Below are positions 12,109 through 57,791 of a stretch of DNA of 57,791 bases, piece after piece. Position numbers and translations under genes: made by a program. Position 1 is the stretch's first letter. Each line of letters starts with the position of its first letter. Source of the stretch: a virus. Location of the stretch: the IMG/VR virus record IMGVR_UViG_3300003323_000218, positions 1-57,791 of that record. One strand, given 5' to 3'. The notes under the pieces were generated by a model that made no database searches, had not been told where the DNA came from, and was given only the letters and a program-made list of their open reading frames with translations.

Positions 12109-13500
12109 TCACGAATTTTGATAGCCATAGATTCGGATCTTTCCAGTCGCGCTAAAGTTAGACCCCGAACCCCAAAGAAAGCCAATTCCCGAGACGGTAT
12201 TAGCTGCAAAATAAGCAAATGTTCTTGTGCTGGCCGTCCAGGCAGGAGTCGCAGCGCTTTGAGTGACGGTAGTTCGACTGACCATCTTCAAGTTGGTGGC
12301 GTCATTCGCATTGCATATATTGACGATAAAACTAGACCCCTTACCAGCAGTCGTTGTAACTGCTGTGTTAATAGCGACCTTTGTATCCGTCGTGGTTACG
12401 CTCGCAGCATCTGCGCCCAATGCAGAGTAGTTAGAGCCAGAATCGAGCGCGCCGCCAGTCGCCAATCGCAGCCACAATGTGTCATCCGCAGCCGGAAGAA
12501 TCCCATCCCCAAGAATCAAATAATTGTCATAAGTTGAGGAAAACGAATTAAGTGAATTCACGGCGGCTGCCGCAGTCGGCGTAAGCGTTGCCAGTAATGT
12601 CAGTCCGGATGCTGAGGTACTGGTGAGCGTTCCAGCGGATAAACTTAAGCCAGTACCGACAGTAATCTCTTCAATTGCTCCGCTCGATGCTGTTGTGCGC
12701 CCAAGCAGCCTGGACGTATTTTGGGTTAGCCCAGATGTCGTTATAGAGCCGCCAGCGACAAGTGTCCCGCTAGTCGGGAAAGTAACGTTAGTCGTATTCG
12801 TCATCGTGAAGGTCGATGCGAATGCGCCGGAGGTGGTGAGATTTCCGCCGAGGGTGATCGTCTTGCCTGTGTTAGCCACACCAGTGCCGCCGTATTGGCC
12901 AGCGATTACAGAGCCATTCCATGTGCCTGTGGTTACCGTGCCGAGCGTGGTAATGGACGTAGAGCCAGCGACAGGATAGCTATCAAGACGGAAGTTCGCG
13001 CCATCATGAAGCACACGAATGCGCGTGTTAGCCGGTAAATCACCGGCAACACAAGCCGAGCCATCCTTCCTCTTGAATGTGACGGCACCTACGCCACTAA
13101 CGTTGAGAGTGGGAGTTGTAGTGGCATTCGGAGAGGCGCCAGTAATGAATTCAAAACATTGCCCTGCGCCATATATCGTGATGGCGGGCGTGACCGTCAA
13201 CGTCAGCGCATCGGCCGTGCCACCGGCCGTACCGCCCCACATAAACGAGCCGTCCTGAACCTGCCCCGCTGCGGCGTAGTCCGTCCTGGCAACAGCATTC
13301 CCCACCCCCGTATGCCGATAGGTAGACATCGGCAAATTTGCTAGAATGGGCGTCTGGCCATCATTGGCGATGGACGCCGTCATGGCGGCCGCCAAGTCCC
13401 CTAATGTGTTGTTGGCCCATGCGCTAGTAATCGTAGTGCCGGTCACGCAAGGATTGACGCCGGGATAGAGGCTGTACGTTCCCGATCCATTTCTACTCAA
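12109..13500 (-). CDS. Tail fibre protein
   Basis: This is a 463-residue protein, Gly/Thr/Ser/Ala-rich and beta-repetitive (GTVTTGTWNGSVIAGQYGG, TLGGNLTTSGAFASTFTMT). The first type is the common 'GTWNG..I' fibre repeat of phage tail fibres. The N-terminal about 100 residues differ and probably attach to the virion; the C-terminal about 170 residues are likely the receptor-binding part. The only good start is TTG at 13500, preceded by gaggtgat. An HNH gene lies just upstream in the opposite orientation. Confidence 0.8.
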   Translation of the reverse strand: MSRNGSGTYSLYPGVNPCVTGTTITSAWANNTLGDLAAAMTASIANDGQTPILANLPMSTYRHTGVGNAVARTDYAAAGQVQDGSFMWGGTAGGTADALTLTVTPAITIYGAGQCFEFITGASPNATTTPTLNVSGVGAVTFKRKDGSACVAGDLPANTRIRVLHDGANFRLDSYPVAGSTSITTLGTVTTGTWNGSVIAGQYGGTGVANTGKTITLGGNLTTSGAFASTFTMTNTTNVTFPTSGTLVAGGSITTSGLTQNTSRLLGRTTASSGAIEEITVGTGLSLSAGTLTSTSASGLTLLATLTPTAAAAVNSLNSFSSTYDNYLILGDGILPAADDTLWLRLATGGALDSGSNYSALGADAASVTTTDTKVAINTAVTTTAGKGSSFIVNICNANDATNLKMVSRTTVTQSAATPAWTASTRTFAYFAANTVSGIGFLWGSGSNFSATGKIRIYGYQNS

Positions 13501-36308: not shown

Positions 36309-36463
36309 GGCAGCCTCCGAAATGCGAAGGCCCCGCCGCAGCTAAATATCCCAAGTGGTACTTGAGACTTCGCTAACGGAAGGGCCTTTGAACTCGCGTA
36401 ACACCTGCGAGGATACAAAAAACATGGTACTTGGTGCATGACACTTTTCATAGCGCTAAATTG
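36309..36463. promoter_or_regulatory. Short non-coding region with repeats
   Basis: No gene is seen. AAGGCCC and GGGCCTT (36327 and 36382) could pair at a distance, CAAGT-GGT-ACTTG forms a local hairpin (36352-36364), and CATGACACTT occurs twice (36437 and 36465), the second at the end of the next gene. A control or processing role is possible. Confidence 0.35.
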
Positions 36464-45167: not shown

Positions 45168-45631
45168 GCGGCGCTCCGCTGATCTCGCCACGCCATGAAA
45201 GGCTTGCGATAGAGTTGATGGAATAAATCAGCCGCGGCATTATTCGTGTCGAGTTCGCGGCGCGATGCAATATCGCAACCATTTAAAATCTCTTGCCTTG
45301 CCTCTTCTTCCGTAAACGGCGGCCAATCACCGGGGGTGAGCGAGGAAAGCCATTCTTGAAACATCGGATCGGCGCAAAATTGCACCGCCAGCCTGCAAAG
45401 CGGCCCGATAGGTTCCTTCGGTTGATCTTTAATGGTTTCTTGCTGAGCTGCCTGTAGTGATGCTTCCTGAGTCAACGCGGCAATAGCGCAGGACGTGCCG
45501 CGCGCACCAAACAGCGCGTAAGCGTCCTTGGCAAAGCGCGGATCGAACTCGAATGTGATTCGAAGCGAACCGTCCGCCATATCTTTAACGCCGGCACTAG
45601 TGGCTTGAATGATTGCGGCTTCTTGACTCAT
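45164..45631 (-). CDS. Phage replication-region protein, unknown function
   Basis: The start at 45631 (MSQEAAIIQATSAGVKDMA) follows aaggattgagccc; 155 residues. The opening DGSLRITFEFDPRFAKDAY is followed by a helical part. The rest is acidic and helical (PFTEEEARQEILNGCDIAS, NNAAADLFHQLYRKPFM). It is coupled to the LexA-like gene. No family recognised. Confidence 0.6.
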   Translation of the reverse strand: MSQEAAIIQATSAGVKDMADGSLRITFEFDPRFAKDAYALFGARGTSCAIAALTQEASLQAAQQETIKDQPKEPIGPLCRLAVQFCADPMFQEWLSSLTPGDWPPFTEEEARQEILNGCDIASRRELDTNNAAADLFHQLYRKPFMAWRDQRSAA

Positions 45632-50360: not shown

Positions 50361-50543
50361 ATTGCAGTAGTAAAGAGCAGCGGGCAAAACGGTGATTGTC
50401 CAGCGTGAGCCGAAACACCTATTCCCCGGCCGGGCGTAGATGGGCAAGTAAGCAAGCAATAGCGCTAAAGGTCACAGCACCGTGACAGCCGGAGAGACGG
50501 CGCCGGTCCCTGCCCCGGTAGCAGTAAAGGCAGGGCCAACATT
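50361..50543. other. Non-coding gap before tRNA-Tyr
   Basis: About 180 bases without a convincing gene. It contains GTCAC-AGCACC-GTGAC and CCCCGGCCGGG, small hairpins, and the start of the long tRNA leader stem. A frame from about 50482 runs through the tRNA but is probably not a gene. Confidence 0.35.
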
Positions 50544-50628
50544 GGAGCCTTGGGGGAATTGGTTAACCCACGGGACTGTAAATCCCGAGTCGTGGCTGCA
50601 CGTCCAGGTTCGAATCCTGGGGGCTCCA
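50544..50628 (+). tRNA. tRNA-Tyr (anticodon GTA)
   Basis: An 85-base tRNA with long variable arm: acceptor GGAGCCT/GGGCTCC, D arm TGGGG…CCCA, anticodon arm CGGGA-CTGTAAA-TCCCG with GTA, and T arm CCAGG-TTCGAAT-CCTGG. Discriminator A at 50628; CCA is not encoded. The flanks extend the acceptor helix (see finding). Tyr codon supply or a host-like tRNA for phage use is likely. Confidence 0.92.
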
Positions 50629-50727
50629 GTGTTGGCCGAAGTACGGATGCCTGACGGCTGGGAGTGCCCCGCCGACGCGCAACAGGAAGCAGTCTCGGCC
50701 AACTTCAATTTATAGGGAGAACTCACG

Positions 50728-51633
50728 ATGTATATCAGCCTGACCGAACGCCGCACCATCACCGCCACCCTGCCCGATCGCACGATCACCGACATGGAGA
50801 TCGAAGACGAGTGGAACGGCCTGACAAAGCTGGTCCACCCGGCATCTGGCCTGTACCTGATCGTGATGCGCGAGGAAGGTCTGATCATCGACGGCTCGAA
50901 GTCGCTTATCGATGATCTGCTGCGTCCCGCAGCGCCGACCGCCGAGCCCGGCTACGTCGTCTTCCCCGAATCGAAGTTGCCGTGCGGACTGGTCGTTCCG
51001 GCGTTCCAGGTGGCGCAGTACATGAACTGCGTCGGCGATGACGGCAAGGCGTACGTCTCGGGCACCGAAGTTCCGTGCGTGAACATCAATTTCGCTACTG
51101 CGATTCAGGCATGCAAGAACGCCGGCGGCGGTCTGATCACCGGCAGCCAGCATCTTGCTCTCGCCTGGGACATCGTGAACCAGCCGGCGAACTGGACCGG
51201 CGGCGAAGTCGGCAAGGGTCACGTCTACCGTGGCCTGCACAAGGGGACCCTGTCATGCGCGCAGCGCAACGACTACGAGCCGAGCGATCCGGAAGAGCGC
51301 CGCTGGCATGTGCTGTCGACCGGCGACCGTATCTATGACTTCGCCGGGCATCTCTGGAGCTGGATGATCAACGACCTCGCCGGAAATGTCGACGGCCTCG
51401 CCGGAAAGATCCCTGCCGACTCTCCCTATCTCACGACCGCATCTCAATACAGCCAGGCGCAAGGCATGGGCTATCGCCCTGACGGGGCACGTGATTGGTC
51501 CAGCTATGCGCTCATCCGCAGCGGCTGCTGGGGCTCCGGCTCGTGTGCCGGCGTGTTCTTTCTCGGCTGCGACTGGCCGGTCAACTGCTACGACTACATC
51601 GGGTTCCGCTGCACCAAGCCAGTAGGTCTCTGA
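50728..51633 (+). CDS. C-type-lectin/FGE-fold protein resembling a DGR variable protein
   Basis: This is a 301-residue protein. Residues 1-75 are a distinct N-terminal domain. Residues about 85-300 are formylglycine-generating-enzyme/CLec fold: HVYRGLHKG, RWHVLSTGDRIYDFAGHLW, then GYRPDGARDWSSYALIRSG. The last 44 residues (51499-51630), with GVFFLGCDWPV and YIGFRCTKP, have the form of a DGR variable region: conserved frame residues separated by NNC codons (TGC, GGC, TCC, CTC, GAC, GTC, AAC, TAC). A hairpin follows the stop. No reverse transcriptase or template is visible. It may bind variable ligands. Confidence 0.75.
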   Translation: MYISLTERRTITATLPDRTITDMEIEDEWNGLTKLVHPASGLYLIVMREEGLIIDGSKSLIDDLLRPAAPTAEPGYVVFPESKLPCGLVVPAFQVAQYMNCVGDDGKAYVSGTEVPCVNINFATAIQACKNAGGGLITGSQHLALAWDIVNQPANWTGGEVGKGHVYRGLHKGTLSCAQRNDYEPSDPEERRWHVLSTGDRIYDFAGHLWSWMINDLAGNVDGLAGKIPADSPYLTTASQYSQAQGMGYRPDGARDWSSYALIRSGCWGSGSCAGVFFLGCDWPVNCYDYIGFRCTKPVGL

Positions 51634-51646
51634 TCTCGGGTCACGG

Positions 51647-51665
51647 GTCGCCGCGAAGCGGTGAC
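51647..51665 (+). other. Hairpin/cruciform just after the variable-type gene
   Basis: GTCGCCGC-GAA-GCGGTGAC: 8 pairs with one G-T and a 3-base loop, 13 bases after the stop at 51633. DGR target genes often have such a hairpin behind the variable repeat, where it aids retrohoming. Confidence 0.5.
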
Positions 51666-51693
51666 GAGCTGAATTTACAAGGAGTGAGTGCGA

Positions 51694-52041
51694 ATGGAAA
51701 CGATCACGCAGGAAGTAACAGTCTGGATTCCGACGTATTGCAATTGGATCGGTCCCGACGACTTCGCAAAGCCTGACTTCGATGTTACTCAATTGTTCTT
51801 CTGCCGCGAGGATAGCGACTACCCGAAGAACGAAGGATATACCTACGTCGGCAAAGCGACCATCACGATGGCAATCCCGGAAAGGCAGGCGCTCATCGAT
51901 GGCAAGGTGGCTGCGCTCCGCGAAGAGCTGAAATCGGTTCGCGCCAACTCTCAGCGCAAGATCAATGCGATCGAAGACAAGATCGCGAAGCTGCTGGCGA
52001 TCACGTACGAGCCGAAGGCCGAGGACGATCATGCCATCTAA
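51694..52041 (+). CDS. Hypothetical protein with C-terminal coiled coil
   Basis: The start at 51694 follows aaggagtgagtgcga; 115 residues. Mixed fold N-terminus (TVWIPTYCNWIGPDDFAKP), then a long helix (REELKSVRANSQRKINAIE). It overlaps the next gene. Function unknown. Confidence 0.6.
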   Translation: METITQEVTVWIPTYCNWIGPDDFAKPDFDVTQLFFCREDSDYPKNEGYTYVGKATITMAIPERQALIDGKVAALREELKSVRANSQRKINAIEDKIAKLLAITYEPKAEDDHAI

Positions 52042-54296: not shown

Positions 54297-54416
54297 GTCT
54301 AGCTTTGGTCGGCGGACAGTATGCAAGCAGAGGCCGATTCGGTTTCTGCGCTCCAAGGAAGAAATTCCACCGTCCGCCGACCAAGCGAGGAGCGCAGAAA
54401 ACCCAATCGGCTTTTT
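54297..54416 (+). ncRNA. Structured RNA with two interleaved helices and a terminal T-run
   Basis: Arm 1a (54305-54317) pairs perfectly with 1b (54372-54384) over 13 bp: TTGGTCGGCGGAC. Arm 2a (54333-54354) pairs with 2b (54389-54411) over about 22 bp with one bulge: GCCGAT…TGCGCTCC. The order is 1a-2a-1b-2b, so both can coexist only as a pseudoknot, or they switch. TTTTT (54412-54416) follows 2b like a terminator. It precedes the HNH gene at 54453. Confidence 0.6.
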
Positions 54417-54452
54417 GCGTTTCAATTAACTGAAATTGATTGGAATCGCAAG

Positions 54453-55046
54453 ATGTCGAAGATAGCCAAAAAACACGCCGTTGCTTATATTCTTGATGCC
54501 GGTCTTTACCCTCAGGATATTTATCTTAAGCGCGGAATTACGCCGAGAAAAATAGTGGTGTTAATTGGCATTCGATATATCGATGGATGCCACATCAAAA
54601 AGTTTGATCTTGAAAAAGCCATTGAGCATTGGCACGACACTGGAAGCATCTATTATCCAATTATTCCAACGCAAAAAGATAACGCGTCTTTGCGGGCGAT
54701 GCGTGATATGCGATTGCTAAAATCAGCCACCAATGCAGCGGCAAGAAATCTAAAAAATAAACATGAGGTAGTTGACGATTTTTACTCCAGCAAAGAATGG
54801 AGAAATCTCCGGTATCTCGCCTTGTCTCTTTGCGAGGGGAAATGCACGTGTTGCGGTCGAAGTGCGGCAGAGCATGGAATTGTTTTGCATGTTGACCATA
54901 TCAAGCCGAGAAGCTTATATCCAGAATTGTCTCTTCAATTGAAAAACCTGCAGATCCTGTGCGAAGACTGCAATATCGGGAAAAGCAATCTTGACGATTT
55001 TGATTTCAGATCGGCGCAAGCAAAAAAAGCCCTGAGCGAAGCTTAG
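54453..55046 (+). CDS. HNH endonuclease behind the structured RNA
   Basis: The start at 54453 (MSKIAKKHAVAYILDAGLY) gives 197 residues; a frame extends upstream through the RNA but is unlikely to be translated. C-terminal HNH: CEGKCTCCGRSAAEHGIV, LHVDHIKPRSLYPELSLQL and LQILCEDCNIGKSN, with zinc Cys and H-D-H. N-terminal part is a helix-turn-helix-like module (YLKRGITPRKIVVLIGIRY). It is clearly A+T-richer than its neighbours, suggesting recent gain. Confidence 0.8.
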   Translation: MSKIAKKHAVAYILDAGLYPQDIYLKRGITPRKIVVLIGIRYIDGCHIKKFDLEKAIEHWHDTGSIYYPIIPTQKDNASLRAMRDMRLLKSATNAAARNLKNKHEVVDDFYSSKEWRNLRYLALSLCEGKCTCCGRSAAEHGIVLHVDHIKPRSLYPELSLQLKNLQILCEDCNIGKSNLDDFDFRSAQAKKALSEA

Positions 55047-57010: not shown

Positions 57011-57791
57011 ATGTCAGATTTCCATCCGTTTGCCACGGTTATCAAGGCTAATTTTGACCGTATGTCCAAGCATGAACTGTTCACCGTCGCGATGTCTGGC
57101 GACGACGTTTGGGCGCAGTATCTGGCCGCTTTCCCCGCCGGCACGAATCCAATTTTCCGCGAACGCACGGAGCACGACTGCTCTTGTTGCAAGAACTTCG
57201 TGCGCAATATCGGCAACGTGGTTGCCATCGTCGACGGCAAAATGGTATCGGTGTGGGATGCGGCTGGCCTTGAGCAACCATATGATGTCGTCGCCGGATC
57301 TCTGTCGGAGTCGGTAAAGGCGCATCCAGTTACCGGCCTGTTCCGGACCAAGGAAGGTGCCTATGGTGCCATCACCACTGTCGAGCGTCTCGGCGACGGT
57401 AATACGCGTCGCTGGAACCATTTTCATGCAGCCGTCGCTTCCAAACATCTTACGGCCAGTCCGGCTGAGAAAAAAGGCGAGTATGCATCGTCAGCCCAAG
57501 TGTTCAAGCGAGGGCTGGACGAGTTGTCGGCAGATGCCTTCCAGACAGTTCTCGACCTGATCGGCAACAAGTCACTCTATCGCGGCGAAGAGCATCTGTC
57601 GGCCATTCGCGAATTTCAAAAGTTGCAACAGCAATACCAAGAATTGGCGAACAGCGGTGATCGCAATGTCTTTGTCTGGCTCAACGCGAGTCATCACGCC
57701 GCACGCTTCCGCAATACGGTGATCGGCACCTTGATTCAGGATCTGTCGGCCGGCGTCGATCTCGAAGCCGCCGTGCGCAGTTTTGAAACGA
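57011..57791 (+). CDS. N-terminal part of the split 668-residue phage protein
   Basis: It begins MSDFHPFATVIKANFDRMSK after gggagaagagca and runs 260 codons plus one base to the window end; base 1-2 complete the next codon. The N-terminal part has DCSCCKNFVRNIGNVVAIV, a Cys cluster that may bind metal, and mixed alpha/beta sections. Continued at 1-1226. Function unknown. Confidence 0.75.
   Translation, partial: MSDFHPFATVIKANFDRMSKHELFTVAMSGDDVWAQYLAAFPAGTNPIFRERTEHDCSCCKNFVRNIGNVVAIVDGKMVSVWDAAGLEQPYDVVAGSLSESVKAHPVTGLFRTKEGAYGAITTVERLGDGNTRRWNHFHAAVASKHLTASPAEKKGEYASSAQVFKRGLDELSADAFQTVLDLIGNKSLYRGEEHLSAIREFQKLQQQYQELANSGDRNVFVWLNASHHAARFRNTVIGTLIQDLSAGVDLEAAVRSFET

Follow-up and report, generated by a model that had tools for sequence, protein, structure and literature searches.

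The window analysed here is the whole of a 57,791-nucleotide IMG/VR virus record (IMGVR_UViG_3300003323_000218), in which the plus-strand open reading frame at 50728–51633 was confirmed to encode a protein of 301 amino acids ending in WSSYALIRSGCWGSGSCAGVFFLGCDWPVNCYDYIGFRCTKPVGL. The gene is annotated as the target of a diversity-generating retroelement (DGR) with a CLec/FGE fold on the basis of the reading frame itself, the presence of its relatives in DGR cassettes and the structural matches of its product. An AlphaFold2 model derived from a 34-sequence alignment (mean pLDDT 80) matched, over residues 70–301, TaqVP (Z 15.7), TvpA (14.1) and Mtd (12.8), and FGE-type proteins also matched with Z of about 12–14. 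The best matches, TaqVP and TvpA, are DGR variable proteins with an FGE-like CLec fold, but they are bacterial, and the match does not reach into the N-terminal part of the protein encoded in the window. In the model, the variable repeat (VR) is predicted to form the C-terminal part of a C-type-lectin/FGE-like fold, in a region where pLDDT is low; the original prediction of a CLec/FGE-fold protein with a variable C-terminus is borne out by the reading frame and these matches. Residues 1–66 (50728–50925, plus strand) constitute a predicted beta-rich region, delimited by the model and by the ranges over which relatives match; it is common to only part of the family, because the matches begin, depending on the locus, either at residue 1 or at about residues 60–76.

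The VR comprises 117 nt (51499–51615, plus strand), as defined by gapless alignment to 29 distinct templates (TRs) of relatives. Its 3' end (51604–51615, plus strand) is IMH-like, with TTCCGCTGCACC where the templates have TTCCGCTGACCC, as judged from the TR/VR pairs of the relatives, and is followed by a hairpin, GTCGCCGC GAA GCGGTGAC (51647–51665, plus strand), which we annotate as a target-site element from the relatives' motif and DNA folding. RT-bearing relatives carry a hairpin in the same place with the same motif, several of them with 3-nt loops; the folding energy of the window hairpin is unexceptional and was discarded as evidence, so that the argument is the kept place and motif. 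A hairpin or cruciform 3' of the VR is thus present in the window, and homing in phage BPP-1 needs a hairpin of this kind (PMC3240598). The target of Bordetella phage BPP-1, Mtd, resembles that of the window in its CLec fold, A-to-N VR and 3' hairpin; however, the engine of BPP-1 lies beside mtd, whose product is a tail tropism protein, while the window target is located near recombination genes (Erf, SSB, Gam). A tRNA-Tyr (GTA) gene directly precedes the target (50543–50629), and a DUF3800-VIII RNA (RF03075; scoring 58.7 bits, with the gathering score at 40.2) lies on the minus strand at 36327–36388; at the target itself, Rfam yielded nothing.

Relatives of the target and their DGR cassettes

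A search of viral contigs with a four-sequence profile identified 65 loci of the family, and RVT_1 was detected in 34 of the 50 family records searched. The usual order of the cassette is target - MSL - TR - RT, with the TR about 1–7 kb downstream of the target at most RT-bearing loci. The MSL gene (261–285 aa), an accessory type named in PMC10053308, lies just upstream of the TR and encodes a protein with MutS domain I and a C-terminus that weakly resembles bAvd; the Magia-type Avd was considered as the accessory protein of the family and rejected, since only one locus (L046) has one and MSL is usual. At most RT-bearing loci, the phage's own TR explains its own VR, with 1–2 non-A positions among 8–26 differences. 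The leftover non-A difference is mostly found at the 3' end, where the VR reads TGCACC and the TR TGACCC, as expected of IMH/IMH*. The MSL-type phage cassettes on IMG/VR contigs such as L011–L017, L030, L031 and L059 encode a homologous target (44–48% identity) and have the VR register, hairpin and template signature in common with the window, which however lacks the MSL, TR and RT.

The closest relative, and the sole close one, is a sister phage represented by a 58.9 kb contig (L002/L009) with 67% amino acid identity in the target; among cultured phages, tblastn and blastn with the target returned no match. Comparison with the sister reveals an unusual codon pattern in the VR. The third codon positions differ at 4 of 40 codons in the VR against 134 of 253 elsewhere in the gene (Fisher p about 1e-7), while differences at the first and second positions are no rarer in the VR than in the rest, and only 2 of 20,000 random codon sets matched the skew of the VR score. 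The NNC bias that had been noted near the C-terminus is recovered as 29 NNC codons among the 40 at positions 257–296 versus 123 of 256 in the remaining codons. That the two phages conserve third positions is nevertheless weakened as proof that they share an active DGR, because VRs keep their third positions across the whole family, the TRs themselves being conserved; comparison with real TRs is the stronger test.

Completeness of the genome and the missing engine

No terminal repeat was found in the record. The frame left open on the right (57011–57790) matches positions 1–264 of phrog_1735 and the left-end frame matches positions 283–673, both parts lying in one frame, so that a single phrog_1735 gene runs over the junction (57011–57791 and 1–1226). 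We conclude that the window represents an essentially complete genome in circularly permuted form, as had been supposed, and the absence of genes from it is meaningful. None of the components of a complete DGR (RT, TR and an accessory protein, MSL or Avd) is present, nor is a remnant of the RT, MSL or TR. Neither RVT_1 nor an HMM built from the family's own RTs detected an RT or RT remnant in the window; searches for MSL and for a Magia-type Avd were likewise negative, and an A-to-N scan of both strands with the ends joined found no TR. The earlier reading of the locus as devoid of RT, accessory protein and template holds under all of these searches. Two kinds of apparent RT signal were rejected: an HMM match at 51367, which arose from the VR matching read-through TR translations in an untrimmed HMM and vanished with trimmed RTs, and tblastn matches of RTs at 45547 and 41565, which were short and, with E values from 0.003 upwards, weak. 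The place held in relatives by MSL - TR - RT, directly downstream of the target, is occupied by a phrog_2479-like gene (51688–52041, plus strand), and an HNH endonuclease gene follows farther downstream (54321–55046, plus strand).

The variable repeat and the templates of relatives

As the window has no TR of its own, its VR was evaluated against the real TRs of relatives rather than an assumed NNC rule. Over the 29 distinct TRs, 20 template columns are A and 45 are invariant and non-A. The window VR shows no mismatch at the 45 invariant non-A columns and is changed at 13 of the 20 template-A columns; the sister VR behaves in the same manner (0/45 and 14/20). VRs of RT-bearing phages have on average 0.5 mismatches in 45 and at most 3, and the untemplated homologues from Janthinobacterium plasmids have 12 and 15. 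The VR of the engine-less phage locus L066 has 7 mismatches in 45, and this drifted repeat shows what an abandoned VR turns into. The window VR is, we are nearly certain, of template origin and the gene a genuine DGR target. Because its VR is without drift against real templates, the sequence requires templating that ended recently or still goes on; with only 13 third positions among the invariant non-A columns, "recent" sets no more than a loose bound.

According to the original prediction, related phages with the same residues at all suspected variable positions, together with the lack of a template in any host, would speak against it; the sister does not fit this, as 11 of the 20 columns with a template A differ between it and the window. 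The residual third-position differences between the two (TCC/TCG, TCG/GAC, GGG/GGC) fall where TRs vary among themselves, which suggests that the window and the sister had different templates.

Probable loss of the engine or possible diversification in trans

The reading that we consider probable, with appreciable reservation, is that the engine was lost recently or the target acquired without it, and that the VR is a frozen, undecayed last variant. The ancestor of the window target would have resided in a target-MSL-TR-RT cassette, where mutagenic retrohoming would have rewritten its VR, the RT copying TR RNA with adenines turned into random bases and the cDNA replacing the VR. Measured by the divergence of target genes, the deletion of the engine, or the gain of the target without it, would be a recent event, and the present VR would be the last variant, maintained as a single fixed surface for ligand binding. 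Since hardly any neighbours of the target are common to the window and the RT-bearing relatives, a transfer that moved only the target is no less possible than deletion in place. The window bears no scar of its own, and the case for loss in its lineage is therefore drawn from relatives.

Scars are found in three RT-less relatives (the sister, L060 and L069) and favour loss by deletion of the engine. The sister retains only the last ~50 aa of an RT (L009, 13746–13916), and the median similarity of this remnant to intact RTs, 67%, equals that of intact RTs among themselves. A truncated second target (the N-terminus of phrog_9572), an HNH endonuclease gene and the RT C-terminal scar adjoin at 13154–13916 of L009; their standing together suggests an HNH-linked replacement of the sister engine. 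By parallel with the sister, whose HNH gene abuts the RT scar, the HNH endonuclease of the window may possibly have been an agent of engine loss. At L060 (8001–8800), the first 67 aa of MSL and the RT C-terminus form an out-of-frame fusion, and comparison with L031 defines a clean ~2 kb deletion of the 3' part of MSL, the TR and the RT core, upstream of which two pristine VRs are retained. L069 carries a short RT C-terminal scar. No engine parts were found on the L064 and L066 contigs, which include 13 and 19 kb of downstream sequence, respectively. The relatives thus show repeated deletion of the engine with retention of the scrambled protein.

We regard as rather unlikely, although a serious competitor, the alternative of continuing diversification in trans, with RT, accessory protein and template RNA supplied by a host chromosome, prophage, plasmid or co-infecting DGR phage and the window contributing just the VR and hairpin. 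The undecayed VR and the retained hairpin are compatible with it, as zero drift is also expected under ongoing service in trans. The VR of L050 lies about 15 kb from the TR and RT of its own phage and yet fits that TR with 1 non-A mismatch of 25, which shows that remote VRs are within reach of this DGR type. L050 and L109 belong to the same 84 kb contig, on which the remote target lies within one phage genome and which carries, at about 3.4–4.3 kb of L109 on the plus strand, a second, divergent RT. In Thiohalocapsa, targets at engine-less loci are described as being rewritten in trans (PMC10907252), and a separate reporter has been rewritten by DGR components from another plasmid (PMC12875486). 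The degenerate and remote-target loci of Thiohalocapsa PB-PSB1 (PMC10907252) resemble the window in having targets without local machinery; for some of them, however, a matching TR and RT are located elsewhere in the same bacterial genome, whereas the complete phage genome of the window has none. Against diversification in trans, no TR fitting the window VR was found among 2.9 million viral contigs, the nearest known TR having 9 non-A mismatches, and the scars of relatives are those of plain engine deletion. A scan of bacterial genomes is uninformative because its pattern fixed TGT where templates have AAT, which leaves room for a host template. A further extension, which we hold doubtful, is a class of phages that keep only a VR and hairpin as a landing site and whose binding protein is rewritten by engines of hosts, prophages or co-infecting phages, a satellite-like use of another element's mutator. 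The original description of an orphan target, either diversified by a DGR located elsewhere or fixed once its engine was gone, keeps both of its options; the relatives' RT scars favour recent loss over service in trans, and the lack of drift leaves the latter standing.

Far less probable is an incomplete or misassembled window from which the RT cassette is missing: the record has no end repeats and TR/VR repeats can break assemblies, but the gene in frame across both ends leaves no room there, and the window is continuous over the 1–7 kb downstream of the target where most relatives have their engine. An ordinary lectin/FGE-fold protein, target-like by descent and never templated in the window lineage, has next to no probability and is refuted by the template comparison: such homologues do exist on the Janthinobacterium lividum plasmids L007 and L008 (sharing the domain, with about 39% identity across residues 87–299), but these lack the template signature, show ordinary third-position divergence and miss 12–15 of the 45 invariant non-A columns, all of which, 13 third positions included, fit in the window VR, and the codon-position asymmetry with the sister also speaks against this explanation. 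These untemplated homologues (L007, 7716–8651; L008, 7836–8645) reside on megaplasmids that are entirely devoid of an RT.

The target type is already known, and what is notable is the recurrence of pristine engine-less targets in phages. Such targets are invisible to DGR surveys that start from the RT, and Roux et al. (2021) placed remote targets beyond the reach of their own survey (PMC8144416). The VR can serve as a clock for the end of templating. Undecayed targets without an engine, together with the relatives' deletion scars, suggest either a gain and later loss of the mutator by phages that keep one variant, or a sharing of mutators between elements.
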